Of a stretch of 29,294 nucleotides of DNA, positions 5,872-25,775 are shown piece by piece. The translations under genes were made by a program, and so were the position numbers. Position 1 is the first letter of the stretch; each line of letters begins with the position of its first letter. The DNA lies in the IMG/VR virus record IMGVR_UViG_3300009034_000170, positions 1 to 29,294 of that record, one strand, 5' to 3'. The DNA comes from a virus. The notes under the pieces are model-generated. The model was not told the origin of the DNA. It worked only from the letters and a program-made list of their open reading frames with translations, and searched no databases.

Positions 5872-7899
5872 ATGCTTAAAAATTTAAAAAAATCTTTAGC
5901 ACTAAGCTTTTTTGGAGATACGATAAAACAAGAAGTCACAAAAGCAAAAGAAGAAATTGTAAGAAGCTCAAGGCAGATTCTACCTTTGATTACAGCACAA
6001 GAGAAAGAAAAAGGAATTGAGCCTGACGTAACAGAGGAAGTTCTATGGGAAACTTATTTATCAGAATCTTGGGTTAGAGCAATCGTAGATTTAATTCAGA
6101 AGAGTTGTGTTGCTTTAGGTTATACCCTAACTCCCTTGAGTGATAAAGCAGACCAGAATCATCTGATTGAATTGGATGCGTTTTTCAAGAATTGTAATCC
6201 GAACGATACGATTATGGAAATGGTTTCGGATATTTCAAGAGATATAAGTATTTTGTCAAAAGCCTTTATGGAGATAGTCAAGAAAGATAAGAAGCCTTAC
6301 CAGTTATGGTCCCTTGACCCGATTAGTATGCGAGTCAAACAAAATGAAACTGGAAGGATTTTAGGTTACAGGCAGGAAGCAAACAAGGGGAGTAAAGACC
6401 CCCAATGGGGACCAGATGAAATAATCTATTGGCGTCTCGGTACAAGGGGTTCGAAGGCTATGTCTAATTCACCTCTCATAACCTTGGCAACTTCAATTAC
6501 AGTTGACAAGTACGCACAGATTTACAACAAGGCTTTCTTCCAGCATGGAGCAAAAGCAAAAGGTCATTATGTTATGAAGGACCAACCTCTGGAGGTGGTA
6601 GAGCGTAACAGAGAATATCTGAAATCGGTTGCAGAGAAACCAGAACTTGCACACATGGATTTGGTTTTTGAGGGAGATATTGAATACGAAAAGACAGGAG
6701 AGAGTCATAAAGATATGGAATTCGGAGAGGATAGAAAATTTATCCGAGATGAAATATTGGCTGTCTATGGTTGCCCACCTTCCTTGATTTCTATTATTGA
6801 ATCTGGCAATATCGGAGCTGGTACAGGTGAAACTCAAATAAAAAACTTCTACGAACAAACAATTATACCTTTGCAGAGAAGAATAGAAAATAAAATCACA
6901 AAGAAAGTTATCAAAGAGGGGTTTGGTTATGATGACTGGGCTTTTGAATTGAGGAAGAGAAAGGTAGCAGAAAAAGAAATGGCAGAAATTCTAAAGATTT
7001 TAGTTGATGCGAATATTCTTACCCCTGAAGAAGCAAGATTATATTCTGGTTATCCACCTCGTAAGGCAGTTGAATCATTGGAGAAAAAACTTGCTTTGAG
7101 AGTCAGAGGTATTCCATCTTTAGAAGAAAGATTTGAAAATGCTTTGAAAAGATTACTCAAGAGATTTGCAGAAGCAGGAAAGAGACAGCTCGAAAAACTC
7201 CCTCTTGCAAAAATGTTTTCAGTCTTGAAAGACGCTGAATATGAAAACAGAATTTACGAATCCCAGTTTAATGAATATATTTTTGAGTTGCATAAATTCC
7301 CTGTCAAAGAAAAACAGTTGAACATAGATGCGATACTTGAAACGATAAAAGAAGAAGATGTCAAAGAAGAACTGTCAAGATTTATGCAAGAAGCCGGGGA
7401 GTTCGGTGCTTCTACAGGAAATAAAAAGCTCGGTACTAAAGCTGTTCTTTCTGCTACAACTCTTGAGAGAATAGATGTGTACCTCACAGACTTGGCAAAG
7501 TATCTGAAAGAAACCATTGACTCAAGTGTGAGACATGAGATAGTTGAAGGTATCAGAGCAGGTGAAACTACTGCTGAAATATCTGCAAGAGTTGAGTCTG
7601 CACTCGACAAACCGATTAAGCACACTATAAATCCTAAAGCCAGAGCCGCTTACACAAAAAGATATAAATATTCTGCTACCGCTGAGTTGATAGCAAGAAC
7701 AGAAGTCAACCGAGCTTTCAATATGGGGATGGTAGATGTATTCAAACAGGCAGAAATTAAAAAAGTTAAGATTCTGCTTTCCCCAGATGCCTGTCCCGAA
7801 TGTCAGCCTTTCAGGAATAAGGTAGTGAATCTGGATGAAGCGAGTCAGATACTGCCGATTCACCATCAGTGTCGTTGCACATTTATTTCAGCGGAATAA
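5872..7899 (+). CDS. Portal protein fused to a MuF-like minor head protein
   Basis: A 675-aa protein, longer than a typical portal (about 400-500 aa). Residues 1 to about 400 match the HK97/SPP1-type portal pattern, with the clip and stem region around the GCPPSLISI to NIGAGTGETQIK segment. The C-terminal part, from about 555, has the MuF (SPP1 gp7/Mu gpF) signature: IARTEVNRAFNMGM, then DACPECQPF (639-647) and HHQCRC (664-669), a conserved Cys/His module. The start is ATG 5872 after GCAGGAGA. Portal and MuF are normally separate adjacent genes; here they are one polypeptide, so up to 12 MuF copies would be anchored at the portal vertex, facing the capsid interior. Confidence 0.88.
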   Translation: MLKNLKKSLALSFFGDTIKQEVTKAKEEIVRSSRQILPLITAQEKEKGIEPDVTEEVLWETYLSESWVRAIVDLIQKSCVALGYTLTPLSDKADQNHLIELDAFFKNCNPNDTIMEMVSDISRDISILSKAFMEIVKKDKKPYQLWSLDPISMRVKQNETGRILGYRQEANKGSKDPQWGPDEIIYWRLGTRGSKAMSNSPLITLATSITVDKYAQIYNKAFFQHGAKAKGHYVMKDQPLEVVERNREYLKSVAEKPELAHMDLVFEGDIEYEKTGESHKDMEFGEDRKFIRDEILAVYGCPPSLISIIESGNIGAGTGETQIKNFYEQTIIPLQRRIENKITKKVIKEGFGYDDWAFELRKRKVAEKEMAEILKILVDANILTPEEARLYSGYPPRKAVESLEKKLALRVRGIPSLEERFENALKRLLKRFAEAGKRQLEKLPLAKMFSVLKDAEYENRIYESQFNEYIFELHKFPVKEKQLNIDAILETIKEEDVKEELSRFMQEAGEFGASTGNKKLGTKAVLSATTLERIDVYLTDLAKYLKETIDSSVRHEIVEGIRAGETTAEISARVESALDKPIKHTINPKARAAYTKRYKYSATAELIARTEVNRAFNMGMVDVFKQAEIKKVKILLSPDACPECQPFRNKVVNLDEASQILPIHHQCRCTFISAE

Positions 7900-7900
7900 A

Positions 7901-10246
7901 ATGCAGGAAATCAAAAAAATAGTTGACTTAAAAACTTATAATCCAAAAGAACAAAACGATGCCCAGCTTCGAGATGATTACAGAATAGCTGCGGCTTGGT
8001 ATTCATCAATCAAAGCTGGGCAGAAATTAAAATGGTCTCAATCTCAAGTTGAGAATCTTACTATCAATATTCTGAAAGAAATTTTAAGTAGAGGGATTGA
8101 GAAATTCACACCTTTAGGAATGAAACCTGCCTCAAAAGAATTATTTATGAAATCAATCAAAAAGATTACTCTCCCTGGGGTTATACTTGTAGAACCTCAC
8201 GCACAGAATTCAATCAAAAGAAAAAAGACTTTAATAATAAAAACGAAACCTTTCAAAGAAATCACCACAAAACCAGTTCATCTTATTTCTAAAAATCTAT
8301 CTTACGGGGTTGCAAAGTTAGAAGAACCGAAAGAAATCTCTTTTAAGAAGTTTCACGATTTAAGAAGACAGCATTTGATTACAGAAGAAGAAAGATTGAA
8401 ATGGGCAAAGACAGAACCTTCCTGGAATAAAGAACCATTGTACTCTTTTGATTTCAAGGTATTGGTAGAATTTGAGAAACCAGTTAATATCACAAGGAAA
8501 GTTGGAACGCAGGTTTACCAAAGAGAAGTCATTCAAAAGAAAGTTGAATTGAAAGACCCGAAAGAATTATCGGATGAAGACTTACTTGAAATGTATCATT
8601 TTTTACATGAGGCTTGGAGAAAGAAAGAAGACGGAAAAAAAGTTCCTGAATTTCCCGAAAGAACTTTTGAGGCTATAATAAATTATTATGTTCTTGTAGT
8701 TCAAGAAATGCAGAGAAGGAAGATGGAATATACACCGATTGATGAATTAGATGAACAGGCAAAACCATTCTTAAAGTCTTTTGCTCCAGTACATCATTCA
8801 GGAGTAATCGAAGGCAGAGAGATTATTTTAAAAGATGTTTTGGGTCAGATTAAATCTTTCCTGCCTTATCCAACAGTTGCTTGGATAGTTGGTGGACTTG
8901 CAAACTGGGGCAAGACCAAAGGTGATATTGATGTTCTTTGGAAAATAACAGACTCATTTCCAGATTGGTTTAAGAATGTATTGATGTTTAGATTCGGCAG
9001 ACAATTCAGTAATCCAGATTTTGCCAGTAGAGTGCAACACCATTTCGATGCGTATCGTGGACCCTTCACTAATGCAGTTGAAATATATCGAATGAATATT
9101 GAAAGAGTAAATCCTCAAGGACAGATAAAAGAAGCGGGGTTTGAAGTAGAACCTAAAATAGTCAAAATGTTATGGGATGAAGAAAAAGAAGGATATATTC
9201 CAGATGATATAATATATCGGATTGAAAAACAATTAAGGGCAGGAACTCCAGAGATTAAAGAACAGGCAGATATTTCAGCCAAGAAAGATGAAGTCAAGGT
9301 TTCAAGATTTTTCTTACCTCTCAAGCCTACAAGGGGCTATAAGCCAGAGCAAAGACAAACCATAGAAAACTTTCTTGCATTATTTAAGCCTGAAAATTTC
9401 CCTGTCTGGTCTTCAAAGAAATATGATGGAGCAAATCACGAAGTACACAAGAAAGGTGATACTGTAAAAATATACAGTGAAGATGGAGAAGACAATACAG
9501 ATAGGTTTCCAAAATCAGTTGAGGAGTTCAAGAAACTTTCAGATAAAGATTTTGTTTTATTAGATGAAGTTGAATTATGGAGAGAAGGGAAACATTTACC
9601 CAGAGAGGCAGTGGTTGGTTATGTTCATGCCAAGGATGAACCAGATGATTCAGAATTAATACATAATATTTACGATATAGTTTATCTTGAGAAAGATATA
9701 CACAAAGTTCCTTTTGAAGAAAGAATAAAGAATCTACAGAAATTAAATATTAAGCAATCTACTTTTGGAATTCCTGATATGAAGTATCGGATAAATGGAG
9801 CACCTTATCTTGTTTCCAAAGATTTAAAAGAACTTGAAGGACACACAGAAAGATTAAGGAAACTTCCTGGAAGTGAAGGAAATGTCGCAAAGTTTTTTGA
9901 CTTTATTTATTTCTTAGATGGTAGAAGAAGTGGAATGATTAAATTTCATAATTCTGCAATTCTGAACGGAATTGTAACCGAAGTCAAGGAAACAAAAGTC
10001 AAAGATATTTTTAATTATACTTATGGAATTGACCCACAAAATTATGCAATAGAAGATGTTGTGGTTGTTGATGAAAAGACTTTTCTTAAAGTTGGCAAAA
10101 CTTTTTCAACCTCAATCAAAGCAAAGAAAGGTGATGTGATTGAGGTTGAATACGAGACATTGAATCTGGAAAAACACGAGACGGATGATGAAGAATTTTA
10201 TAAAGTAACTTGTTGGAGTCCAAGAGTTATGAAGGTTTTAGAATGA
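7901..10246 (+). CDS. Nucleotidyltransferase-like / ATP-dependent DNA ligase fusion in the head operon
   Basis: A 781-aa protein. The start is ATG 7901, directly after the portal stop; a longer frame from 7835 would overlap portal coding sequence. Residues 1-110 are unrecognised. Residues 327-347 (IVGGLANWGKTKGDIDVLW) match the GG...GDID signature of Pol beta-type nucleotidyltransferases, with D383 (HHFDAY) as a possible third carboxylate. The C-terminal half is a DNA ligase core: motif I KYDG with K507 as the AMP acceptor, motif III LLDEVELW (553-560), motif IIIa YDIVYL (from 591), motif IV SEGNVAK (658-664), motif V MIKFH (679-683), then an OB-fold-like tail with VGKTFSTS. The arginine usual in motif Ia (SRxG) is replaced: it reads SEDGED. 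Ligases are not normal head-operon genes; see findings. Confidence 0.8.
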   Translation: MQEIKKIVDLKTYNPKEQNDAQLRDDYRIAAAWYSSIKAGQKLKWSQSQVENLTINILKEILSRGIEKFTPLGMKPASKELFMKSIKKITLPGVILVEPHAQNSIKRKKTLIIKTKPFKEITTKPVHLISKNLSYGVAKLEEPKEISFKKFHDLRRQHLITEEERLKWAKTEPSWNKEPLYSFDFKVLVEFEKPVNITRKVGTQVYQREVIQKKVELKDPKELSDEDLLEMYHFLHEAWRKKEDGKKVPEFPERTFEAIINYYVLVVQEMQRRKMEYTPIDELDEQAKPFLKSFAPVHHSGVIEGREIILKDVLGQIKSFLPYPTVAWIVGGLANWGKTKGDIDVLWKITDSFPDWFKNVLMFRFGRQFSNPDFASRVQHHFDAYRGPFTNAVEIYRMNIERVNPQGQIKEAGFEVEPKIVKMLWDEEKEGYIPDDIIYRIEKQLRAGTPEIKEQADISAKKDEVKVSRFFLPLKPTRGYKPEQRQTIENFLALFKPENFPVWSSKKYDGANHEVHKKGDTVKIYSEDGEDNTDRFPKSVEEFKKLSDKDFVLLDEVELWREGKHLPREAVVGYVHAKDEPDDSELIHNIYDIVYLEKDIHKVPFEERIKNLQKLNIKQSTFGIPDMKYRINGAPYLVSKDLKELEGHTERLRKLPGSEGNVAKFFDFIYFLDGRRSGMIKFHNSAILNGIVTEVKETKVKDIFNYTYGIDPQNYAIEDVVVVDEKTFLKVGKTFSTSIKAKKGDVIEVEYETLNLEKHETDDEEFYKVTCWSPRVMKVLE

Positions 10247-10704: not shown

Positions 10705-12342
10705 ATGAAAATTGATTCAGTAGATTCAGCAGTTGAGAAAGCAAAGAAGGGGTTAGTATTTCAACCGAAGACTATCACAAAAGAGAAAGAGATTTTGTAT
10801 AAAACTTTCTTAGAGAAGCAAGTCAAAAATCCTTATATGATAGTTCCAGATGAAGATGTAAGTTATAAATATGTTTGTCAACATCATTACAGGGGTAAGA
10901 CTTGTCATACCGATTATAGAATTGAATCTGAAAAGAAAGAGTTCTTAATTGGCTGGACTTTAGCTGATTTGATTAAAGGTGTGATTACTAAGCCAGTTGA
11001 AACTATGACTGTTGCAAGAAAATGGGATAAGACTTCAAGAGCTTGGAAGATAGATTGGAAAACTGGGAAATTTAAATTAAGAAGAACAAGAGCAGGTACT
11101 TTAGTTCCAGCAGAAATCAGGGCATTTGAGAAAGCAGTAGAACCACACGAATGGCTGAAGGTTGAAGGTGTTACTCCTCCGTTCCCAGCCCCAGGAGCAA
11201 CGAAAGAATTCAGAGGAGTCTTTACTGTAGTTGATGATGGCATTGGAGAATATGGTTCACAGAAGTTGGACTTCCACGAATATTTTTTAAGTAAAGGAAA
11301 ATTAAAAGGTAGATTAGTAACCCGCAGGTTAGTCAGAGGTCAGTTTCAAAAAGAATATGATATTGATAATGATATAGAAGAAAGCCTTGCTTTAGAAGAG
11401 AATGAAGAAATTCCTTTATGGCATTTCAAAAGGAATGTTCAACTTTACTTAAAAAATGTTTTAGGATGGCAACCTGAAAAGATTGAAAAGCATTTTCCCC
11501 TTGAAAAGAAAATGATTGATATAGAAAAGCAGTTTGGAGAGATTATGAAAGAACGTCAGGCAGTCTTGCCTCCTGGTACTCCCGAAGAGAGGCTTGTAAC
11601 CGCTACTTTCTGGGTAGCCATTCAACCGAAAGACCAGACACCTTATGTCTTACAGAAAAGGGCAGTTGATAAAAAATGGATGCCCCCTGATGGTAAATCT
11701 GCATTGCCCAAAGTTATCAGAAGGCAGATTCCTTCTGAATATCAATACTGGAAAGAGAAAGGAAAGAAAGCACAAAAAGTTAGGGATGATTTGGTCAAGG
11801 CTATAAAAGAAAAAGAAGTTGAGATTGACATAGATATAATAGCAAAGAATTATGAAATAGAAAAACAGGAATCTGGAAAATCTGTTTTACAGTTTCATTG
11901 GTGGCGGGGTCCTGTTGTAGTTCGCAGGGGGGCTTCCGAATACCATTTTGACTTCAGAGCATATTTTGGAAAGACTCCATTTGACCATTGGGTTTTAGAA
12001 GAGAATCCACTTGAACAGCCAGAAGGAGTATCTGCAATTTTTAAATCTTGCAGAGATGTTAAGACTCTTGATGTAGAATTTAATCCTCCTCCAAAAGATT
12101 CTCCGTTGGCAGAATACAAGAAAAGGTCAATCCCATTCAATACAGAACTTAATCCAACTAAGGCAACTCCAGCTTTTATTCAAAAGATAGATTCAGGCAG
12201 AGTTATAAAATTAATTGATAAACCATTATTTAAGAAATATCAGGTTACTACTGGAAAGATGAAGGGAGTATGGATAATAGAGCGTAAAACCCCGACGGAA
12301 AAAATTTGGAAATTCTCGAAATCGGCTTTGCCGAAAACCTGA
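10705..12342 (+). CDS. Protein with two LigD phosphoesterase-like HxDxR domains
   Basis: A 545-aa protein with a start at ATG 10705 after AAGGGA. Residues 59-72 read QHHYRGKTCHTDYR, close to the LigD 3'-phosphoesterase block (Q-K-H, then H-x-D-x-R), with H61, H68, D70 and R72 as candidate active-site residues and one extra residue in the spacing. GWTL follows where the family has SWAV, and EYG at 182-184 matches the family's later EYG. A second copy lies at 396-418: QFHWWRG, then EYHFDFR with H414, D416 and R418, followed by WVLEENPL. About 320 residues separate the two blocks. In LigD this domain removes 3' phosphates or ribonucleotides before ligation. The call is by motif only; non-catalytic structural use is possible. 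Confidence 0.6.
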   Translation: MKIDSVDSAVEKAKKGLVFQPKTITKEKEILYKTFLEKQVKNPYMIVPDEDVSYKYVCQHHYRGKTCHTDYRIESEKKEFLIGWTLADLIKGVITKPVETMTVARKWDKTSRAWKIDWKTGKFKLRRTRAGTLVPAEIRAFEKAVEPHEWLKVEGVTPPFPAPGATKEFRGVFTVVDDGIGEYGSQKLDFHEYFLSKGKLKGRLVTRRLVRGQFQKEYDIDNDIEESLALEENEEIPLWHFKRNVQLYLKNVLGWQPEKIEKHFPLEKKMIDIEKQFGEIMKERQAVLPPGTPEERLVTATFWVAIQPKDQTPYVLQKRAVDKKWMPPDGKSALPKVIRRQIPSEYQYWKEKGKKAQKVRDDLVKAIKEKEVEIDIDIIAKNYEIEKQESGKSVLQFHWWRGPVVVRRGASEYHFDFRAYFGKTPFDHWVLEENPLEQPEGVSAIFKSCRDVKTLDVEFNPPPKDSPLAEYKKRSIPFNTELNPTKATPAFIQKIDSGRVIKLIDKPLFKKYQVTTGKMKGVWIIERKTPTEKIWKFSKSALPKT

Positions 12343-12537: not shown

Positions 12538-13950
12538 ATGGATTTTAAATTTCCGATATTAATTCAAAAGGCTTACGAAGATACAGAAGATAAAGAATTT
12601 CATATTACTGGTTATATCTCAACTTCTGCTCTTGACCTTCAGAATGATGTTATTGCTCCAGAAGCTCTTGATTTGAAATTAGAAGATTTTGCAACTCAAA
12701 CTTTATTATACAATCATAATCAGGACAGACCAATAGGTGCATTGAAAAAATTAAAGAAAACTAAAAAGGGTTTATGGATTGATGCAATTATTGATAGGTC
12801 TGCTACTATAATTGAAACTGGAATAAACGTAGTTGACGCAATCAAACAAAAAATTCTAAATAAGTTTTCATTCAAAGCAAAGGTAGTAGAAGCAGTTGAT
12901 AAATTTTTAAGTAGATATGATAGAGTAGTAAATTATGTTACAAGGATTCTACCAGTTGAGGCTTCTCTTGTTTGTGTACCTGCAAACCCAGAAGCTGAAG
13001 GATTAGGCTGGTACGAAAAATCACTATCAGAATTTCCAAGAGCAATTGGATGGTATTTAACCAAAGCTCTTGAAGAAAACGGAGGAAGAAAGATGCCAGA
13101 TGAAATTTTAGAGAGTGTTGGATTTCCAGAGATTGACAATGAGGAATTTTTTAAAGGTTTAGGTGATGTTGTTGAGGGTTCTTTTTTGACAGCAGATGAA
13201 ATATGTAAATCATTTGAAGAATTTTTGAAAGAAAGGAAACTCACAGAGAGTGACAAGCAAGATTTGATAGATAAATCTTGGGAAGAGTTTTGTGAATCAA
13301 AACAGCTTCCGAAACCTTATCCGAAATACCCTGTTCCTGCAGGACGTTACCCAGAACCGAAAACAGGTCAGTATCCGTATCCAGGACCCACAGTTTCAAA
13401 ACAGGCTATCAAAGAAATCTTCTTTCTACTGGATAAACTAACAAAGGGACCAAACGAAAAAATTACAAATATAGCAAAACAGATAAAGGCAATGCTGTCA
13501 AGGGCTGTTGAATATCCTACTCCAGCTACAGCATATCCGAAGCCTTATCCATACCCAAAGCCGGCAGGCAAGAAGGAGGGAGAGAAAGTGGAAGAAAAAA
13601 TTGAAAAATTGTTTGGAGAGTTAGGCATTGATGAAAAAGGACAGGAAGACCTGAAAAAGCAATTCCCGAAAGAAGAAGATTTGCTGAAACATCTTGAAGA
13701 GAAAGCGACTGCGAAAAAACTCGAAGATGAAAAGAATGAGAAAGAGAAAAATGAGAAGGGGATTGAGAAAAAGCTCAGTGATTTGATTGATGAAAAATTC
13801 AAAACTATTACTGAGAAAATCGAGAAGGGTGAAGTTGTAAGAAAAGGTCTTGACATAAACGAATCAAAAACAACTCTTGAAAAAGCTCTTGAAGGAAAGA
13901 GCGAACAGGAAAAGTTAAATATTCTATTATCCCTCGAACGTAAAGGATAA
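12538..13950 (+). CDS. Prohead protease fused to scaffold
   Basis: A 470-aa protein starting at ATG 12538, with GGAG 6 bp upstream. The N-terminal 160 residues are an S78/HK97-type prohead protease: GYISTSALDLQNDV, H60 in LYNHN, S111 in KFSFKA and E141 in PVEASLVCVPANP form the expected His-Ser-Glu triad. Residues about 255-285 and 325-345 are Pro/Tyr-rich linkers (such as YPKYPVPAGRYPEP and TAYPKPYPYPKPAG). The C-terminal 115 residues are a Lys/Glu-rich coiled coil, as in scaffold or delta domains. Protease and scaffold in one chain would self-remove after capsid assembly. The capsid gene is 570 bp downstream. Confidence 0.88.
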   Translation: MDFKFPILIQKAYEDTEDKEFHITGYISTSALDLQNDVIAPEALDLKLEDFATQTLLYNHNQDRPIGALKKLKKTKKGLWIDAIIDRSATIIETGINVVDAIKQKILNKFSFKAKVVEAVDKFLSRYDRVVNYVTRILPVEASLVCVPANPEAEGLGWYEKSLSEFPRAIGWYLTKALEENGGRKMPDEILESVGFPEIDNEEFFKGLGDVVEGSFLTADEICKSFEEFLKERKLTESDKQDLIDKSWEEFCESKQLPKPYPKYPVPAGRYPEPKTGQYPYPGPTVSKQAIKEIFFLLDKLTKGPNEKITNIAKQIKAMLSRAVEYPTPATAYPKPYPYPKPAGKKEGEKVEEKIEKLFGELGIDEKGQEDLKKQFPKEEDLLKHLEEKATAKKLEDEKNEKEKNEKGIEKKLSDLIDEKFKTITEKIEKGEVVRKGLDINESKTTLEKALEGKSEQEKLNILLSLERKG

Positions 13951-14017: not shown

Positions 14018-14479
14018 ATGAAAAGAATCTTAATCGTATTATGTTTGATGATTCTGATTTTTGGAGCAATTAAGGCTGGGAGTAAGCGACCATTAGATGG
14101 GAATGGCAGAACCTATTGGTCAACAGATTTTGGAGTCGACTACAAGATAGTTACCGACACTACTACTTGGACTACGGTTTTTAACAGACGTGGGATTATC
14201 TACGGGGTTTACTGTATGGCAAGTGCGACATGGACAGCGAGTACTAATTATTTCAGACAGGCAGCTTCTACGAATGCCATCGTGATACCGAATCTGACTT
14301 TGGCAGCGAAATCTACAAGAATTGTTGGCAATCCTGTAGCAGAATCAACTAATTTTATTCCTACGAAAGCGATTTATGCAATCAGTGGTTTGAAGGTCAG
14401 ACCAGGTGCTTCTATACCAAAGAACGCAGCTGGGGTTGAAAACGAAACAACTTTGTATATTCTCTACTGGTCACGATAA
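14018..14479 (+). CDS. Signal-peptide protein in decoration-protein position
   Basis: Start at ATG 14018 (153 aa), chosen for AGAGGAGG 8 bp upstream; the frame is open back to 13976 without a ribosome site. The N terminus, MKRILIVLCLMILIFGAIKA, is a classical Sec signal peptide with likely cleavage after Ala20. The mature part is Thr/Ser/Ala-rich and beta-like (DYKIVTDTTTWTTVFNRRG, TKAIYAISGLKVRPGAS), with no Cys after the one at residue 64. Genes between scaffold and capsid usually encode head decoration proteins, and the size and composition fit. A cleavable signal peptide on a head protein is unexpected. It may instead be an exported phage protein unrelated to the head. Confidence 0.65.
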   Translation: MKRILIVLCLMILIFGAIKAGSKRPLDGNGRTYWSTDFGVDYKIVTDTTTWTTVFNRRGIIYGVYCMASATWTASTNYFRQAASTNAIVIPNLTLAAKSTRIVGNPVAESTNFIPTKAIYAISGLKVRPGASIPKNAAGVENETTLYILYWSR

Positions 14480-14517
14480 TAGAAAAACCAGAGAAAAAAA
14501 AGTGAGGTGTAAATATC

Positions 14518-15438
14518 ATGATTAGAGATTTACAAGAACTTAAGAAAGCTTTAGATGTAGCAGCAGCGGGTGATGTTCTGTTACAACCTGAAGTTGACAA
14601 AGTAATTCAGTCCTTGATTTTGGTACATAACCCGTTGAGAAATAATGTGCCAAGAAAGAAAGGAAGCGGAAAACAGTGGATTGTCGTAAAGAGGTCAGTG
14701 GCTCCTGGAACGAATTGGGTGAATGATACCGAAGAACCAGCTGTTACAAATTCAACCTATCCTGCATGGGTGACTTTCGATTTCAAAGACATATTATTTA
14801 AGGGCAAAGTGACGCATAAACTTCAACTGACAGGATTATCGTACACTGATGTTAAATCAGCCGAAATCAATGCTGGGCTCGACGCAATTAAGAAAGATGA
14901 AGAAGATGCGATGATAAATGGTGATGCCAGTGTAACTCCAAAACAACCTTCTGGTTTGAGGAAACTCATTCCTGCGGGTCAGATAGTTGAGGCTGGCGGA
15001 GCAGGTGGAGACGGTGCTTCTTTAACCTTGAAGTTAATGGATGAAGCGATAGACCTTTGTTACGGATTGCCAGATATGATAGTTTGCTCAAAGCGAACCC
15101 GAAGAGAGTTAAATTCCCTAATGCAAGTGAAACAGAGATTTATCGATAAAGTTGAAGTGAAAGGTGGGTTTAAACTACAGTCCTACAATGACATTCCGAT
15201 TTACTGGACTCCTGCGATTTCAGATGCTCAAACTCAAGGTAGTTCAAGTGATGCAAGTGACCTATACATAGTTGATACAACTAAATTCTGGGTTGGTGTT
15301 CTCGAAGAATTGAGACAGGTTCCTTTAGCAAAGGTTTCTTCTCAATATGATTCCTTCGACATCCGTGAGAGTGTGACTAACGTTCTGGCTAATGAGAAAT
15401 ATTGTTCCCGAATCAAGGGAATAATTCCACCGAGCTAA
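14518..15438 (+). CDS. Major capsid protein, HK97 fold
   Basis: A 306-aa protein with a start at ATG 14518 after GTGAGGTG. The pattern is that of a short HK97-fold capsid protein: N-terminal helix region (LQELKKALDVAAAGDVLL), an E-loop-like segment around NDTEEPAVTNSTYPAW, the spine helix with KKDEEDAMINGD, and a C-terminal P-domain/A-domain with DMIVCSKRTRRELNSLM, YNDIPIYWTPAI and the DLYIVDTTKFWVG strand. It follows the protease-scaffold gene and is followed by a strong terminator, as expected for a gene expressed in large amounts. No long N-terminal delta domain is present, which agrees with a separate scaffold. Confidence 0.85.
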   Translation: MIRDLQELKKALDVAAAGDVLLQPEVDKVIQSLILVHNPLRNNVPRKKGSGKQWIVVKRSVAPGTNWVNDTEEPAVTNSTYPAWVTFDFKDILFKGKVTHKLQLTGLSYTDVKSAEINAGLDAIKKDEEDAMINGDASVTPKQPSGLRKLIPAGQIVEAGGAGGDGASLTLKLMDEAIDLCYGLPDMIVCSKRTRRELNSLMQVKQRFIDKVEVKGGFKLQSYNDIPIYWTPAISDAQTQGSSSDASDLYIVDTTKFWVGVLEELRQVPLAKVSSQYDSFDIRESVTNVLANEKYCSRIKGIIPPS

Positions 15439-15449
15439 AAGAATAATCA

Positions 15450-15479
15450 GAGAGGCGTATTTCTACGCCTCTCTTTTTT
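15450..15479 (+). terminator. Intrinsic terminator after the capsid gene
   Basis: GAGAGGCGTA (15450-15459), loop TTTC, TACGCCTCTC (15464-15473), then six T. A perfect 10-bp stem. Genes downstream must rely on read-through, antitermination or a promoter not recognised here. Confidence 0.95.
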
Positions 15480-15500
15480 CTTTGATATATGGAGGTAGAT

Positions 15501-15980
15501 ATGAAAATATATCTTGCTATAGGTTTAATTTGTTTACTTTCTGTAAGTGCTTTTTCTTACGTTGCTCCCAGAGATGATAATAGAGTGCCAGCTTCTGTTA
15601 TCGCTGATAGAGATGGAAACTTTTTAGTGATAGATTCAAGCGGAAATTTGATGGTGAGTATTTCTACCCTTACCTCAATAGTAGTTCTTGATTCAAGATA
15701 TAGCGGGAAGGTTTCCACTGGAACCTCTGGTAAGATTACCGCCGTTACGAGTCAGCAAATAGTCATATCCAATGATGTAACAGGGTTTCAGTTTACTTTC
15801 ATAAATTCAGTAGATGGTTCTGCTGAAGCGACTGTTACTACTTCTCACGATGGCGACAAAAAATATTTTTACGATGGATTCTGGAAAGTAATAAAAATAG
15901 ATGTACCGCAACCCATAACCTTTGATGTTTCTTTGCCGGTTACTTCTACCATGACTTATGAAATTCAAGAAGTCAGGTAG
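15501..15980 (+). CDS. Signal-peptide protein, beta-rich, unknown function
   Basis: A 159-aa protein. ATG 15501 is preferred over the in-frame ATG at 15489 because GGAGG sits at 15491-15495. The signal peptide MKIYLAIGLICLLSVSAFS likely ends after Ser19. The mature domain has alternating strand-like segments (NFLVIDSSGNLMVSIS, GKITAVTSQQIVISNDVTG) and ends in YEIQEVR. It resembles small accessory or decoration domains on virions. It is the first gene of a five-member secreted-protein cassette. Confidence 0.65.
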   Translation: MKIYLAIGLICLLSVSAFSYVAPRDDNRVPASVIADRDGNFLVIDSSGNLMVSISTLTSIVVLDSRYSGKVSTGTSGKITAVTSQQIVISNDVTGFQFTFINSVDGSAEATVTTSHDGDKKYFYDGFWKVIKIDVPQPITFDVSLPVTSTMTYEIQEVR

Positions 15981-16001
15981 ATTAAGACGAGGAGAATTCT
16001 A

Positions 16002-17096
16002 ATGAAAAAATTTATAATATCTTTCATTTTAATTTTATTCCTTCCGAGTTTAGTTTTCAGTCAAACCTTGAGAGATTATACCAAAGTTAAAAAATCCGGG
16101 GATAGAATGACTGGCAATTTATATCTACAAGCAGATTTAAGGGATGTCGTAGTTGGCGTATTTAATACGATAACTTCATCGGAAACTGGAAAAATTGCAG
16201 GAATTATTTTTAACAGCCAAGGAAATGTAATTGACATGACTAATCTAAATCTCGGTAGAAAAACTACAAATTATTTCTACGGAGGTACGGCTGACGATTA
16301 TCATAGAGCAGATGGAGAAGCTCAAGCTCATGATAGTTATAAAGCTCCCAATCTTTATGGCGATATCTTGCATATTGATGCCATCGTTCCGAGAGGCACC
16401 GTTCCATCAATAACTATTTCCACTAATGTCAATGCAGAAGGATATATGATAGCGGCAGATAGTTTTTCTCTTACAGGTTCAGGGGTTAAGGCAATAATAT
16501 GTTATGATACAGAAGAACATGCTGTCACAATTAGTTCAAAAACAATTATAGATGGTGGATTTGTAGTAAATGGAGATTTTGATGCAAACGGAAATTGCAT
16601 TGAAGATGTCTGCACTCTTTCTGTTAGTTCGCACAGTAACTTTGTAGGAGAGCATCACGATTTTGCAGAAATTAGTATCACTACTGGAGCAACTGCTACT
16701 ACATTAACAGATCAAAATGTATGGTATCAAGTAACAACATTAACTTCGACTATTGGCGTGAGGGGTTTAACTGTAGGCGGGAATGAAATAATAATTTCTA
16801 CTAAGGGTTGGTATCACATAAGCCTACCGATTACTTTTAGCGGAACCGTAAAGGATAAAACTATAGAATTTGGAGTGTTTAAAAACAACGGTGCTTACGG
16901 GACTGGCGACGGTAATCTTGAACACTTACGAGCTACTCAATTAACTAACGGCGTAGGAACTTTCCAGACAATCACTATAATAGGAAAAGCTTATTTTGAT
17001 GTTGGTGACCACATAGAGGTTTGGGCAAGATGTACTTGTTCAGGTTCAAACTCAATAACGGTTCGTCATGGAGTATTAGACGTAGATAAACGATAA
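16002..17096 (+). CDS. Signal-peptide fibre-like protein with C1q-like C-terminal domain
   Basis: A 364-aa protein. The start ATG 16002 has GAGGAG upstream. The signal peptide MKKFIISFILILFLPSLVFS is followed by Gln. Residues about 32-45 read KSGDRMTGNLYL, a motif common at the base of phage tail fibres. The middle is a repetitive beta shaft (SITISTNVNAEGYMIAADS). The last 130 residues (GWYHISLPITFSG, TIEFGVFKNNG, VGDHIEVWARC) match a C1q/TNF-like jelly roll, which trimerises at fibre tips and binds receptors. The export signal is odd for a tail fibre; it could be an adhesin or cell-surface protein made during infection. Confidence 0.65.
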   Translation: MKKFIISFILILFLPSLVFSQTLRDYTKVKKSGDRMTGNLYLQADLRDVVVGVFNTITSSETGKIAGIIFNSQGNVIDMTNLNLGRKTTNYFYGGTADDYHRADGEAQAHDSYKAPNLYGDILHIDAIVPRGTVPSITISTNVNAEGYMIAADSFSLTGSGVKAIICYDTEEHAVTISSKTIIDGGFVVNGDFDANGNCIEDVCTLSVSSHSNFVGEHHDFAEISITTGATATTLTDQNVWYQVTTLTSTIGVRGLTVGGNEIIISTKGWYHISLPITFSGTVKDKTIEFGVFKNNGAYGTGDGNLEHLRATQLTNGVGTFQTITIIGKAYFDVGDHIEVWARCTCSGSNSITVRHGVLDVDKR

Positions 17097-17118
17097 ATAA
17101 ATAAGCAATTAAATAACC

Positions 17119-17328
17119 ATGTCTACAGAAAGCGATTTTGATGTTTCAGTCGGAGTTAAAGTTTACAATGCAACGTCGACTATTTCTGAATATAGTTCAG
17201 CGGTCTATGTCGCTACTATGGATGCTTCTGCTGTCGATTTGGTTTTGGCTCCAATTACTTATTTAGAAGACAGGGCGGGAAATGATATTATAGACAGAGC
17301 TGATAATATTCTAATAGCAAGAAGATGA
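17119..17328 (+). CDS. Small hypothetical protein, 69 aa
   Basis: Starts at ATG 17119 without a clear ribosome site. It is Ser/Asp-rich and beta-like (VSVGVKVYNATSTISEYSS), ending in TYLEDRAGNDIIDRADN. No signal peptide is present. It lies among the fibre-like genes; a short structural protein or a fragment of a longer fibre gene are both possible. Confidence 0.5.
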   Translation: MSTESDFDVSVGVKVYNATSTISEYSSAVYVATMDASAVDLVLAPITYLEDRAGNDIIDRADNILIARR

Positions 17329-17329
17329 A

Positions 17330-17515
17330 ATGGCAAGAGAACAGCATTATAAAAAAGAAGGAAATGATTTACATGTTTCAGCAATCGTTAGCGAAACAAA
17401 ACCAGATGTTTCAGATTGGACTGACCCGACTGGTTTATTTTGGATTAGAAAAAGTGATAAGTCTCTTTGGGTTTATATGGTAGATGATTTTTATCCTGTA
17501 GTTTCTTTCGGTTAA
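17330..17515 (+). CDS. Small hypothetical protein, 61 aa
   Basis: Starts at ATG 17330, one base after the upstream stop. It contains DPTGLFWIRKSDKSLWVYM, a Trp-rich beta hairpin pattern seen in small phage tail accessory proteins. No signal peptide and no strong ribosome site; probably translated by coupling. Function unknown. Confidence 0.55.
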   Translation: MAREQHYKKEGNDLHVSAIVSETKPDVSDWTDPTGLFWIRKSDKSLWVYMVDDFYPVVSFG

Positions 17516-17517
17516 TT

Positions 17518-18354
17518 ATGAAAAAAATATTTTTAGTTTTGATTTTATTTTTGGTTGCTTCTAAGTTATCAGCACAATATGTTGCACCTTATAAAATAAT
17601 TTACAGTTCCGAAACGCCTACAGCTACTTTTATTTATGCAGGTCAAATGGAAATCGGAATTTCAACTACCACAAGATATATAATACTTTTAGGTACTGGA
17701 ACAGCCAGAGCAAAAGAAGGAGTATTTGATTACCTATTTATTGCTGAACAGATGAAAGCTAAACGAATAACGAGTGGTGATGATGGAAGTGTTACTAATG
17801 TATGGACAAAGTTTGTTTCATCAGATTCGTGGGGTGAAACAGCAGCAGGAAATGGGGGAAATAAAATCAGGCATGAACCAAAACCTGCCTCAACCTGGGA
17901 TACCCCTGGATATACTGGGAATAGTGCGATAGTGAAAAAAGAATGGGAAGTAAATTCATCAACTCAAAGAATCTATGTTATTAAGTTACCTGACAGTGCT
18001 TTGCCAAATGAGGCGAATACCGACATTATAGTTGATAGGGAATTTGTAGACAATGGAACCGTCAACGCTTATTTTGAAATGGTATCTTCTGCGACAATTA
18101 CAGACCCTGGAAATGTATGGTTACACTTAATAATTTCAACCTGTCGTTTCGTGGTTTCTGAAGTCTATGAATCAACTACAACAGGAGCTTCTAACGGATG
18201 GGATGATGGAGTGGTATCAACATTTACTTTTGCAAATTCAAATATATGGACAGATGGAAAATGCGTAACAGCAAAAATAAGGAGAATAAGTGGAGATGGT
18301 TATACGCAGACGGTTTATATTAAGCATGGTGATTTTTCTTATCCCGTTGATTAG
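17518..18354 (+). CDS. Signal-peptide protein, putative surface or virion adhesin
   Basis: A 278-aa protein starting at ATG 17518, two bases after the upstream stop. The signal peptide MKKIFLVLILFLVASKLSA ends in a good signal peptidase site before Gln. The mature chain is Ser/Thr-rich and beta-like, with EIGISTTTRYIILLGTGTA near residue 45, which recalls shaft segments of fibre proteins, and a C-terminal part (CVTAKIRRISGDGYTQTVYI) fitting a beta sandwich. Its last 65 bp overlap the start of the next gene in another frame. Function unknown. Confidence 0.65.
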   Translation: MKKIFLVLILFLVASKLSAQYVAPYKIIYSSETPTATFIYAGQMEIGISTTTRYIILLGTGTARAKEGVFDYLFIAEQMKAKRITSGDDGSVTNVWTKFVSSDSWGETAAGNGGNKIRHEPKPASTWDTPGYTGNSAIVKKEWEVNSSTQRIYVIKLPDSALPNEANTDIIVDREFVDNGTVNAYFEMVSSATITDPGNVWLHLIISTCRFVVSEVYESTTTGASNGWDDGVVSTFTFANSNIWTDGKCVTAKIRRISGDGYTQTVYIKHGDFSYPVD

Positions 18355-18715
18355 TTGGGCAAAGATGCCAACAGTCAGAGGATACGTAGATTTTAAAACA
18401 ACTGATTTACAGAATACTTTTTACAATTTACTAAATTCTAAAAGAACTAAATGTATAGATAACGCATTGGTAGAGAAACAAAATGTTATTGTAGATATAA
18501 GTACGGGTGTTACAAAAACTATCTACAGGGTTACATTTTATATGAATTTCAACATACAGAATATCTCTGATAGAAACCAAATAAAACTATCAACAACAAC
18601 TTTTAAAATTAATAACAATATAGTTGATTATAAATTTGAAATATGGGAAAGCAACAATGATGGAATTCCAGGGCAATGCAAGCCCGATAAAATAAGGGAA
18701 TTGCTTTTGAAATGA
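18290..18715 (+). CDS. Signal-peptide protein whose leader overprints the upstream gene
   Basis: A 141-aa protein. GTG 18290 is supported by AAGGAG five bases upstream. The alternative ATG 18365 has no ribosome site and would remove the leader. The N terminus (VIRRRFILSMVIFLIPLISWA) is an ideal Sec signal peptide with a triple-Arg n-region and cleavage after Ala25. Nearly all of it is encoded inside the 17518 gene in a different frame. The mature domain (KTIYRVTFYMNFNIQNISD, then a Cys near each end) suggests a small beta fold, possibly with a disulfide. Function unknown. Confidence 0.6.
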   Translation: MEMVIRRRFILSMVIFLIPLISWAKMPTVRGYVDFKTTDLQNTFYNLLNSKRTKCIDNALVEKQNVIVDISTGVTKTIYRVTFYMNFNIQNISDRNQIKLSTTTFKINNNIVDYKFEIWESNNDGIPGQCKPDKIRELLLK

Positions 18716-19437
18716 AGATAATCCTACTTTTGCTTTTTTTATTTTTGTCTTCACAAGTTTATCCTCAGAACGAAGGATGCAGAGGACTTGATGGCATTGA
18801 TGATTATGTTGATACTAACGAACAGGCTATCTTTCAATTTGGAACAGGGGATTATTCTTATATGTTTTGGATGTATCCTACAAATTGGGGTAGTGATTAT
18901 GTAGTACCAATATCAAACGACCACTATTCTGGGATGTGGGAAAGTATCCATATAACGTGTGAACGTGGCGTTGCCCCCCTAAATAGATGCAGAGTTTATT
19001 CAGGAGATAATTTTAATTGGCTAAATAGTGTTACAGTTTTCACAAATAATAATTGGTATCACATAACAGTAACCAGAGTGTCTGGATTGGTGACTATTTA
19101 TGTAAACGGAGTTTATGATAACAGTACCACAATTACTAACAGTGTTACTGTGGCAAGAAATATGTATATCGGCAGAAATGTAGACCCGACATATCCGAGA
19201 CACTTTCAGGGAAGAATAGATGAAGTCAGATTTTGGAATTATGGGCTATCTTCAGAGCAGATACCAGAAAAGATGGATAGGGTTATTGCTGATGAAGAAC
19301 CTGGACTTATTTGGCATTCAAATATGGATGAACCAGCAGGTAATGTTTTTGATAGATCTAAAACGGGAGGGGCAGGAACGGTTACGGGAACGTACGCAGA
19401 TATTAACGCACCGATTAAAAGAATTATTGGAGAATAA
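18712..19437 (+). CDS. Signal-peptide LamG-like (concanavalin-type) domain protein
   Basis: A 241-aa protein. ATG 18712 overlaps the upstream TGA. The signal peptide MKIILLLLFLFLSSQVYP leads into a LamG_3-like jelly roll: GLDGIDDYVDT (residues 25-35), a YMFWMYP strand, NNWYHITVTRVSG followed by TIYVNGVYDNS, and the closing GRIDEVRFWNYGLSSEQI. These are the classical landmarks of the family, which binds carbohydrate or protein ligands. A tail-associated receptor-binding or host-adhesion role is likely. Its location between the capsid and connector genes is unusual. Confidence 0.78.
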   Translation: MKIILLLLFLFLSSQVYPQNEGCRGLDGIDDYVDTNEQAIFQFGTGDYSYMFWMYPTNWGSDYVVPISNDHYSGMWESIHITCERGVAPLNRCRVYSGDNFNWLNSVTVFTNNNWYHITVTRVSGLVTIYVNGVYDNSTTITNSVTVARNMYIGRNVDPTYPRHFQGRIDEVRFWNYGLSSEQIPEKMDRVIADEEPGLIWHSNMDEPAGNVFDRSKTGGAGTVTGTYADINAPIKRIIGE

Positions 19438-19761
19438 ATGGATGCTTTTCCTTATAAAATTTACCGAGGGGATACGAAAACAATAGATTTCGTGGTAACA
19501 GAAGATGATTCACCATTTGATTTATCCGATTCTGTTGTGAAGTTCATAGGTAAAAAGAGCTTTTCAGATACAGATGCAAATGCAGTTTTCGATGTTACTT
19601 GTACCCTGACTACTCCAGCGAGTGGTGAGTGCAGTGCTGAGATTCAAGTTTTTACTGAGGGAACACTTTTTGTTGAATTGGAATACACCAAAGGTGCAAC
19701 TATAAAAACCCTGAAACAATGGGGTGGCTTTGAGGTCTTACCAGACTTACGCAGAGGTTAG
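19438..19761 (+). CDS. BppU N-terminal-like baseplate or fibre attachment protein
   Basis: A 107-aa protein. ATG 19438 follows GGAG with a 5-bp gap. It has the pattern of the lactococcal phage BppU N-terminal Ig-like domain: IYRGDTKTIDFVV, PFDLSDSVVKFIGKK, and a closing VELEYTKGATIKTL then FEVLPDLR. In other phages this domain joins receptor-binding proteins to the baseplate. Here it stands alone, at the end of the fibre-like cassette, and could serve as an adaptor. There is no signal peptide, unlike most neighbours. Confidence 0.65.
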   Translation: MDAFPYKIYRGDTKTIDFVVTEDDSPFDLSDSVVKFIGKKSFSDTDANAVFDVTCTLTTPASGECSAEIQVFTEGTLFVELEYTKGATIKTLKQWGGFEVLPDLRRG

Positions 19762-20033: not shown

Positions 20034-20582
20034 ATGTCCAATTATACCACTGCTCAGAAAGTTAGTAATTATACGAAGGGAAAGATTGCAGTTACAGATA
20101 TTAAATCTGAATGGCTTGAATGGGCTAATGATTATATTGAGCGATTTAGTGGTTTGAAATTTAGTTCTGGGATTGCCTTTACTGACAACTTAGACGGGAA
20201 TGATTTGGAATGGATTTTTACAAAACATTATCCTTTACTGTCAGTAACTTCTTTGAAAGTTGGAGGTACTGAAGTTGATTCAGCTAATTTCAAATGGTAT
20301 CCAACTGGAAGGATTGTTCTTTTATATTCTACTTTTACTATTGGAAATCAAAATGTAGAGGTTATAGGAACTTACGGATTCGCTACTGTCCCCGGGATAG
20401 TTGAACAGATTGCGACAATGCTTACTGCTGGGATTTGTTATGCAGCGAGAGACGGGATATCTCCAGATGTAAAATCCGAAAGAATAGGAGACTATTCTGT
20501 TGCATATTTCGGAATAGCTGAAAGTCAGATAGAAAAGCAACTGAAGGTTTTAGGTAAAAGGAATTCTTTAGAGGGAGCATGA
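20034..20582 (+). CDS. Head-tail connector (adaptor, HK97 gp6/SPP1 gp15-like)
   Basis: A 182-aa protein. The start ATG 20034 follows the upstream stop directly. N-terminal helices (WLEWANDYIERFSGL), a central beta region (LLSVTSLKVGG, WYPTGRIVLL), and the C-terminal helix AARDGISPDVKSERIGDYS match the usual pattern of gp6-like connectors, including the ending with SERIGDYSVAYF. Such proteins form a ring under the portal to which the stopper binds. The gene order that follows (stopper, gp10-like, tail terminator, tube) supports the call. Confidence 0.8.
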   Translation: MSNYTTAQKVSNYTKGKIAVTDIKSEWLEWANDYIERFSGLKFSSGIAFTDNLDGNDLEWIFTKHYPLLSVTSLKVGGTEVDSANFKWYPTGRIVLLYSTFTIGNQNVEVIGTYGFATVPGIVEQIATMLTAGICYAARDGISPDVKSERIGDYSVAYFGIAESQIEKQLKVLGKRNSLEGA

Positions 20583-23611: not shown

Positions 23612-23760
23612 TTGATAAATTTTCAATCGAATATCCAGGTTGGTCAAAGAGAGAAATTGAAAGTTTGTCTATTTTGGATTTGAATTATTATAGTAGATTG
23701 ATAGATGAAAGACATAGAAGGTTAGAAATGGAGTCGAAGAAATGGCAGCACCGATATTAG
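23315..23760 (+). CDS. Tail assembly chaperone, long form by -1 frameshift (gpGT-like)
   Basis: Translation join 23315-23599 and 23599-23760; 148 aa. The slippery heptamer CCCTTTT (23593-23599) has the canonical X XXY YYZ form, read CCT TTT in the zero frame, 12 bp before the short-form stop. After a -1 shift the frame runs YQKIIDKF, EYPGWSKREIESLS, LNYYSRLIDERHRRLEMES to TAG 23758-23760. The Leu-Tyr-rich helical tail is typical of the T part that recruits tube subunits. It overlaps the tape measure start by 19 bp. Confidence 0.8.
23593..23599 (+). promoter_or_regulatory. Programmed -1 ribosomal slippery site
   Basis: CCCTTTT in the correct register (C CCT TTT). An A6 run at 23603-23608 is in a poorer register (see rejected items). 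Confidence 0.8.
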
Positions 23761-25775
23761 AAATTCTATTAAAGGCTATAGATGAGGTAAGTAAACCACT
23801 CGATAAAGTCTCAAAGAAACTCAAAGATGCTGGAAAATCTTTTACCGATGTAGGTAAAAAGTTTACCATAGCAGGTGGAGCTATGACTGCTGTTATGGGT
23901 TTGATGATAAAAAGTTCAGTAGATTACGCTGTTAAACTTGACAAGATGTCAAAGGCATCTGGGGTTGCAACGGAAACTTTAGGCAGGTTTATCTATGCTG
24001 CTGAACAGGAACACGCCTCAGTTGATGCCATGAGTAAGGGATTAACTTTACTTGCTCGAAGTTTATTTGATGCCTCGAAAGGAATCGGTGAAGGGAAACT
24101 TGCTTTTGATGAACTTGGTTTTTCAATAACAGATGTTGAAGGAAATTTGAAACCTGTTGATGAAGCCTTTCTTGAACTCGTAGATAGATTTGGTGAAGTT
24201 ACTGATGAAAGTAAACTGACTGGAATGGCTATGAAGGTCTTTGGAAGGGCTGGAGTTGAACTCGTTCCATTTATGAGGTTAGGAAGAGAAGAAATTGAAA
24301 AACTTGGAGATGAAGCAGTTAAACTTGGAAAGATAATGAGTGCTGAAGACGTAAGGGCTTTCAAAGCTTTTGATGATGCAGTGGTAGCTATACAAGGAGG
24401 TATCAAGGGTCTGTTCCTTCAATTTTCTACCGCTTTAATCCCTTCCCTGAAGATTGTGGCAGAACTTGCGAAAGATTTTGTTATAAGTGCAATTGCTTGG
24501 TCAAAAGCTAATGAAGGAATTTTCAAAACTATGTCTAAAGTTGCTGTTGCGATCGCATTAGGGTTGACTGCTCTCGGAGGTTTGCTTTTAAGTATCGGAG
24601 TTTTTCTAAAACTCGGAGGGTTTCTTGTGGGTTCTCTTGCTGCTTTGGGTAAAGGTTTAGTTTTCTTTGCTTTAAAACTTGCTCTTCCTATTGCAGCCCT
24701 TGCCACTTTAGTCTTAATGGGTAAAGCTATAATTGATTCTTTTGATGTATTAAAGAAATCACTTTCAGACCTTCTCCAAAGTTTTGTTTCTTTTGGTGAC
24801 GCAGTGATTAAGATTTTTGAAGGTGTTTTTTATGCTTTAACTTTCAGACCAAAAAAAGCCTTTGAGACTATGAGTCAGGGGATTAGCATGGCAAAAACCG
24901 CTATGCTTGATGGTTTAATAGCAGTTGGAGAAGGTGCGGATGAAACCTTCGGAAATTTCAGGGATTTGACTTTTGGAACTTTTGAATCTGTAAGAGGGAA
25001 GTTTTCCGAAACGATGGATAGTCTTTTGGGAGAACTCGAAAAATTCCCAGAAGGAATTCCAGAAAGTTTGGAAGAAACAAGGAATTTACTAAATGAATTT
25101 TGGGATGAATTTAAGATTGGTTTTATAAGTTCTTTCATGACAGTTGAGAATTTTGGTAAAACAACTTTTACTTCTCTTTCAGGTGCTATGGCACAGACTT
25201 TTGCAGATTTTGGAAAAGGAGTCAAGGATTTTTCTGGTATATGGCAAGGATTTTTAGACTCAATGGGATTGAGTTTCTTCAAGAGTGTTTCAGAAATGAC
25301 TCTGTTATGGATTGCAGGGGATAAACAGAAGGCTGCCTCTACTTTGGCTTGGAAAACTTTAACCTTAGCCTATCAGGGGGCTGTTGCTGCTGGACACGCT
25401 GTAATCAGTGCTTTTCAAACTATGCCTTGGTTTGTTGCAATTCCTGCTGCTGCTGGAATAGCTTCTTCCGTGAAAGGCATTATAGAAAGTTTTGAGTTTG
25501 GTGGTATAGTTCCGGGTCCCGAAGGTCAACCGAGATTGGCGGTAGTTCATGGCGGAGAAGAGTTTAGAACCCCAGCACAACAGAGAATGGCAGAAGGAAT
25601 TCCGAGAGAAATTATCATTGAAAGTATAAATATTCAATTTCCCGAAGTAACAACTTTTCAGGATTGGATAGAAGCTGACCCTTCTCTGATAAAAGAAGTA
25701 ACTGAAAGAAAATTACTTGAATCCTTTAAACTTTTAGCTGAAGAAGGAAAAATGGAAGAGGTTGTAAAAGTATAA
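23742..25775 (+). CDS. Tape measure protein
   Basis: A 677-aa protein, the longest of the tail module. GGAG lies upstream of ATG 23742. The N terminus has the helical tape measure pattern (VSKPLDKVSKKLKDAGKSF), then DVGKKFTIAGGAMTAVM. Long helices and several hydrophobic stretches follow (VAIALGLTALGGLLLSIGVF; LPIAALATLVLMG), fitting a role in membrane passage. The Gly-rich C-terminal part has FEFGGIVPGPEGQPRLAVVHGGE, a signature seen at the ends of many tape measure proteins. It sets tail length and is ejected ahead of DNA. The length implies a tail of about 100 nm at 1.5 Å per residue, an estimate from the family. Confidence 0.9.
   Translation: MAAPILEILLKAIDEVSKPLDKVSKKLKDAGKSFTDVGKKFTIAGGAMTAVMGLMIKSSVDYAVKLDKMSKASGVATETLGRFIYAAEQEHASVDAMSKGLTLLARSLFDASKGIGEGKLAFDELGFSITDVEGNLKPVDEAFLELVDRFGEVTDESKLTGMAMKVFGRAGVELVPFMRLGREEIEKLGDEAVKLGKIMSAEDVRAFKAFDDAVVAIQGGIKGLFLQFSTALIPSLKIVAELAKDFVISAIAWSKANEGIFKTMSKVAVAIALGLTALGGLLLSIGVFLKLGGFLVGSLAALGKGLVFFALKLALPIAALATLVLMGKAIIDSFDVLKKSLSDLLQSFVSFGDAVIKIFEGVFYALTFRPKKAFETMSQGISMAKTAMLDGLIAVGEGADETFGNFRDLTFGTFESVRGKFSETMDSLLGELEKFPEGIPESLEETRNLLNEFWDEFKIGFISSFMTVENFGKTTFTSLSGAMAQTFADFGKGVKDFSGIWQGFLDSMGLSFFKSVSEMTLLWIAGDKQKAASTLAWKTLTLAYQGAVAAGHAVISAFQTMPWFVAIPAAAGIASSVKGIIESFEFGGIVPGPEGQPRLAVVHGGEEFRTPAQQRMAEGIPREIIIESINIQFPEVTTFQDWIEADPSLIKEVTERKLLESFKLLAEEGKMEEVVKV

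Follow-up and report, generated by a model that had tools for sequence, protein, structure and literature searches.

Sec-type leaders on late-region genes of a metagenomic tailed phage

Tailed-phage parts are normally assembled inside the cell, so that export signals on genes of the particle-building region are unusual. The window analyzed here is an IMG/VR record (IMGVR_UViG_3300009034_000170; 29.3 kb, 29,294 nt) of a tailed phage known only from metagenomes, with a standard gene order on the plus strand (Table 1). Six of its genes carry what look like signal peptides. Are these genuine export signals, and where would their products go? Our reading, to which we give a probability of roughly 0.7, is that all six function as Sec signals, most of them with signal peptidase I, and that the products leave the cytoplasm; less certainly, these would have a fibre-like or lectin-like role in or on the host envelope.

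Table 1. Features of the window. Coordinates are those of the window; a slash marks the predicted leader cleavage site.
Feature	Position	Strand	Length	Leader	Matches and remarks
Terminase	4445-5869	+
Portal	5872-7899	+
Prohead serine protease	12538-13950	+		none	PF04586, E=2e-11; phrog_80, E=3e-20
Gene 14018	14018-14479	+	153 aa	MKRILIVLCLMILIFGAIKA/GS	no family match; flanked by protease and MCP
Major capsid protein (MCP), HK97-type	14518-15438	+		none	phrog_212, E=4e-19; PF05065, E=2e-8; PF17236, E=7e-12
Terminator-like hairpin	15449-15480	+			11-bp stem, then T run; directly 3′ of MCP gene
Gene 15501	15501-15980	+	159 aa	MKIYLAIGLICLLSVSAFS/YV	no family match
Gene 16002, fibre-like	16002-17096	+	364 aa	MKKFIISFILILFLPSLVFS/QT	KSGDRMTGNL motif; possible TNF/C1q-like C-terminus
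Small island ORF	17119-17328	+	69 aa	none
Small island ORF	17330-17515	+	61 aa	none
Gene 17518	17518-18354	+	278 aa	MKKIFLVLILFLVASKLSA/QY	no family match
Gene 18290	18290-18715	+	141 aa	MEMVIRRRFILSMVIFLIPLISWA/KM	GTG start; 65 nt shared with gene 17518
Gene 18712, LamG_3 (concanavalin A-like)	18712-19437	+	241 aa	MKIILLLLFLFLSSQVYP/QN	PF13385, E=1e-23; cleavage site not clean
BppU_N-like gene	19438-19761	+	107 aa	none	PF10651, E=4e-4, just below cut-off; 3′ edge of island
Head-tail adaptor	20034-20582	+		none	phrog_442, E=1e-19; neck genes follow
Tape measure	23742-25775	+
Fibre-like gene	27609			none

Apart from these features, the window encodes an 803-aa protein with an ATP-dependent DNA ligase domain (PF01068, E=6e-15) between portal and protease (7835-10246), short partial homologs of which lie near the same place in three related records (G003, G042, G043). 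The gene at 10705-12342 presumably resembles LigD-type phosphoesterases, judged by eye, and has a homolog directly before the protease in contig L029. A C-5 cytosine DNA methylase-like gene is found at 713-1342 (PF00145, E=2e-9), with only the N-terminal part of the family matched.

Leader anatomy and excess over controls

The first-pass annotation described Sec-type leaders at the starts 14018, 15501, 16002, 17518, 18290, and 18712, and all six N-termini are as described. In each, an n-region with K/R is followed by an uncharged apolar core of 12-21 residues. The signal-peptidase site (-3/-1) is acceptable in five genes, with I at -3 in 14018 and L at -3 in 17518. The exception is 18712, which has P at -1 (VYP/QN) or, alternatively, a site at LSS/QV that implies a leader of 14 residues. 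Shine-Dalgarno-like sequences lie upstream of 14018, 15501, 16002, and 18290, and the starts of 17518 and 18712 adjoin or overlap the gene before. The leader of 18290 is coded within the 3′ end of gene 17518 (18290-18354), in another frame and with its own AGGAG before the GTG.

Leader calls were made with our own rule-based caller, not SignalP. The caller accepted 8/9 textbook leaders and 1/83 internal Met starts; among random peptides matching the window in composition, it accepted 0.5%. It called leaders in six of the window's 33 genes of at least 80 aa against 9/528 in control phage records (Fisher p = 9e-5), the controls being whichever phages were available (distant relatives, lambda, and a single phage from a metagenome) and not a random phage sample. 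The evidence supports the suggestion that these leaders are genuine and unusual at such a genomic position. Chance or artefact (N-termini that happen to be hydrophobic, misassigned start codons, a chimeric contig) would be easier to entertain for a metagenome contig with an island of genes that has no homologs in the records compared. We find it scarcely credible given the low caller rates on random peptides, internal starts, and controls, the ribosome-binding sites, the ordered phage genes on both flanks, and the recurrence of the trait in independent records of differing base composition.

The N-termini could also be uncleaved anchors, prosequences for the prohead protease, or peptides that act on membranes and stay in the virion. 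For phages of Porphyromonas gingivalis, it has been proposed that the prohead protease removes signal-peptide-like starts of capsid proteins (PMC10367356). In the window, however, the n-region, core, and c-region are correctly ordered, the -3/-1 residues are mostly small, and unrelated proteins remote from the capsid also have such starts, whereas the MCP itself has no leader. We consider this alternative very unlikely.

Several leaders had been described as ending in S/A followed by Q. This pattern is clean in 16002 (VFS/QT) and 17518 (LSA/QY), but not in 18712, and the other three would expose G, Y, and K. Two of the six leaders, or three counting 18712, have Q after the site. The two clean sites recall the Q-rule of Bacteroidetes, for which values above 48% have been given in almost every Bacteroidetes species (PMC5837995), but a set of six leaders is too small to press the comparison.

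Genomic position and related phages

The six genes had also been described as virion-cluster genes. Of these, only 14018 lies between two head genes; the remaining five sit together as an insert that separates the MCP from the neck genes. This island (15501-19437) is bounded by the post-MCP hairpin (MFE -19.1 kcal/mol, z = -5.9) and the neck genes, and is not a standard decoration or fibre slot. It is missing between the MCP and neck genes of the related records G001, G002, and G004, which nevertheless have G+C-rich post-MCP hairpins too, each of different sequence (read by eye; L008 ~10925-10954, L010 ~10921-10949, L062 ~474-504). The spacing between protease and MCP is 570-710 nt in the window, G001, and G002, each with a leader gene inside, and 13-24 nt in G003, G042, and G043.

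The leader trait was found in six related IMG/VR records (G001, G002, G004, G048, G049, L112), all of which may be fragments. The richest is G001 (34.6 kb, MCP 63% identical). Its nine leader calls fall on the gene upstream of the MCP, on genes of 573 aa (tail-tip slot) and 757 aa (fibre), on a beta-helix protein, and on a pair resembling Rz/Rz1, among others. A further caller match, at an internal start in the G001 tape measure, was taken as a false positive. Since the spanin-like pair of G001 carries leaders, a diderm host is suggested. G002 (MCP 53%) has a leader gene upstream of the MCP that is 47% identical to its G001 counterpart, and G004 (MCP 64% over a partial gene) has four leader calls, one of them a LamG_3 protein. 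G048 and G049, found via a leaderless gene of ~190 aa that adjoins the fibre, carry leader-bearing fibres, and G049 has an additional leader gene in the tail-tip slot and a leader protein with two LamG_3 stretches. L112 is the source of a fifth leader-bearing fibre. The ~190-aa gene was considered as BppU_N, but had no match to that family in Pfam. Before the adaptor, the window and G001 each have a gene for 86 aa, alike in length and place but not in sequence. The G004 fibre is apparently split (L062 10644-12281) into a 121-aa leader ORF and a 419-aa ORF, which together continue the G001 fibre; gene decay or a frameshift may lie behind the split. A distant phage of 70% GC, G047, has a 389-aa leader gene with Q after the likely site in its structural region (33778-34947; also L039 14355-15524).

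Four other records, which may likewise be fragments, gave zero leader calls over their whole length (G003, G042, and G043, with MCPs about 49% identical, and G044). Sister phages with related capsids thus do without such genes, and this capsid type needs no export. No further relatives were found in the genomes of two phyla with MCP matches.

Two families of relatives keep their leaders. Upstream of the MCP, both members (G001, G002) have one, which is less alike than the remainder of the protein. In the tail module of five phages, members of a fibre-like family follow the tail tip. Though divergent, 5/5 keep the leader, and they share an N-terminal domain while their C-termini vary. With the sequences aligned on the mature motif, identity is ~52% over the first 14 residues from that motif and ~11% in the leaders, the latter a lower bound because the comparison was ungapped. 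Uniform absence of leaders from homologs, named at the outset as evidence against the idea, was found in neither family.

The six window proteins have no detectable homologs in the searches and comparisons made, so this argument from conservation applies to them by analogy of place and architecture only. Compared as single-sequence HMMs, the six matched neither one another nor the leader proteins of the relatives significantly; 14018, 16002, and 17518 had no relatives in the phage collection, and a search of viral contigs with 16002 found none. Alignments of 14018 to the G001/G002 gene at 27-29% identity were discarded (BLASTP E=21). With no significant sequence match, 14018 is a positional counterpart of that gene. 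AlphaFold models, made for the mature form of 14018 and for the G001/G002 pair, had a pLDDT of 33, too low to use. The match of 16002 to the C-terminus of the G001 fibre is weak (E=0.006 for a single comparison), and that to PF00229 (TNF/C1q-like) falls below the cut-off (E=0.07).

The leader genes might be morons, host-derived cargo that alters the surface of the infected or lysogenic cell and forms no part of the virion. An island of five genes between a terminator-like hairpin and the neck genes, absent there in relatives and encoding proteins without homologs in them, fits this, and lambda lom is a known tail-region gene with a leader. However, sigma-70-type promoter-like sites in the region show no excess over shuffles, and the fibre family and the MCP-upstream gene sit at fixed places in several phages, which is less expected of passing cargo. 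We regard this explanation as a serious contender, though short of probable.

Possible destination of the leader proteins

If the leaders are real export signals, the products leave the cytoplasm. Leader anatomy, the excess over controls, and the leaders kept in two families of relatives make export of late-region proteins likely. In the reading we prefer, the leaders would direct these products out of the cytoplasm via Sec, and the fibre-like and lectin-like proteins would act late in infection, within the host envelope or on its surface, either in adhesion or by masking receptors against binding by other phages or by progeny already released. Outward-type domains are present, with LamG_3 in the window (18712), G004, and G049, and a beta-helix in G001. 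We rank first the more ordinary reading, that the proteins are secreted or act at the cell surface, and put a final place in the host envelope or outside the cell at somewhat under even odds. A final place in virions, loaded outside the cytoplasm, seems rather unlikely, and the remaining probability goes to other outcomes.

If they are loaded onto virions in this way, decoration or fibre subunits would be exported ahead of attachment and would join particles in the periplasm or beyond it, as the cell lyses or afterwards. The leader would then spare assembly from disturbance or allow periplasmic maturation. The slots resemble those of tail fibres and head decoration proteins, namely the protease-MCP slot in the window, G001, and G002 and the slot after the tail tip in five phages. 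The conserved N-terminal domain and variable C-termini of the fibre family are the usual tail-fibre pattern, although a conserved base with a variable tip also fits cell-surface adhesins. No large leaderless fibre follows the tape measure in G001, G004, or G049, and by elimination the leader proteins may be the fibres of those virions. These records may be fragments, however, and a leaderless fibre may be encoded elsewhere; the window itself has a leaderless fibre-like gene (Table 1). Compared with known decoration and fibre families, only the LamG_3 domain of 18712 matches well among the window's leader proteins, and it is not virion-specific. Cyanophage structural proteins also contain LamG-like domains. 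Among the genes of the control phages, leaders are rare. We know of no tailed phage in which fibre or decoration proteins are exported and then added to particles, which counts against this route. We hold it to be unlikely, and find it just as improbable that the lineage synthesizes tail fibres and capsid decoration alike with Sec leaders and finishes its particles outside the cytoplasm, in the periplasm or once the cell has lysed.

Verrucophage P8625 has signal peptides in 0/52 genes (PMC4642752), and phage DGR target proteins have been reported without them (PMC6199706). Among the closest known likenesses are the proposed Nixviridae, prophages of P. gingivalis (Bacteroidota). These are tailed phages with several signal-peptide genes, for which use of the host general secretion system was inferred, and five of these genes, of unknown function, have Q after the cleavage site (PMC10367356). 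The likeness is one of gene content. In the window, only two sites are cleanly followed by Q, and neither a fibre-slot family with conserved leaders nor a gene in the protease-MCP slot is described in that account of the Nixviridae (PMC10367356). In lambda, Lom and Bor are exported late or prophage proteins encoded by the phage, and the leaders of both were accepted by the same caller; lom is in the tail region. They amount to one or two genes per phage, for an outer-membrane protein and a lipoprotein, rather than multiple fibre-like and lectin-like proteins in head and tail slots. Phage use of host export is thus already known, and the surprising part is leaders on proteins of the tail-fibre slot.

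Were the fibre-slot proteins to form part of the virion, particle assembly in this lineage of tailed phages would take place partly outside the cytoplasm. If they do not, up to about nine late genes would go to exported adhesin-like and lectin-like proteins, and the phages would be devoting much to the host surface at the end of infection. Either way, using a signal peptide as a criterion for bacterial genes would misplace these phage genes.
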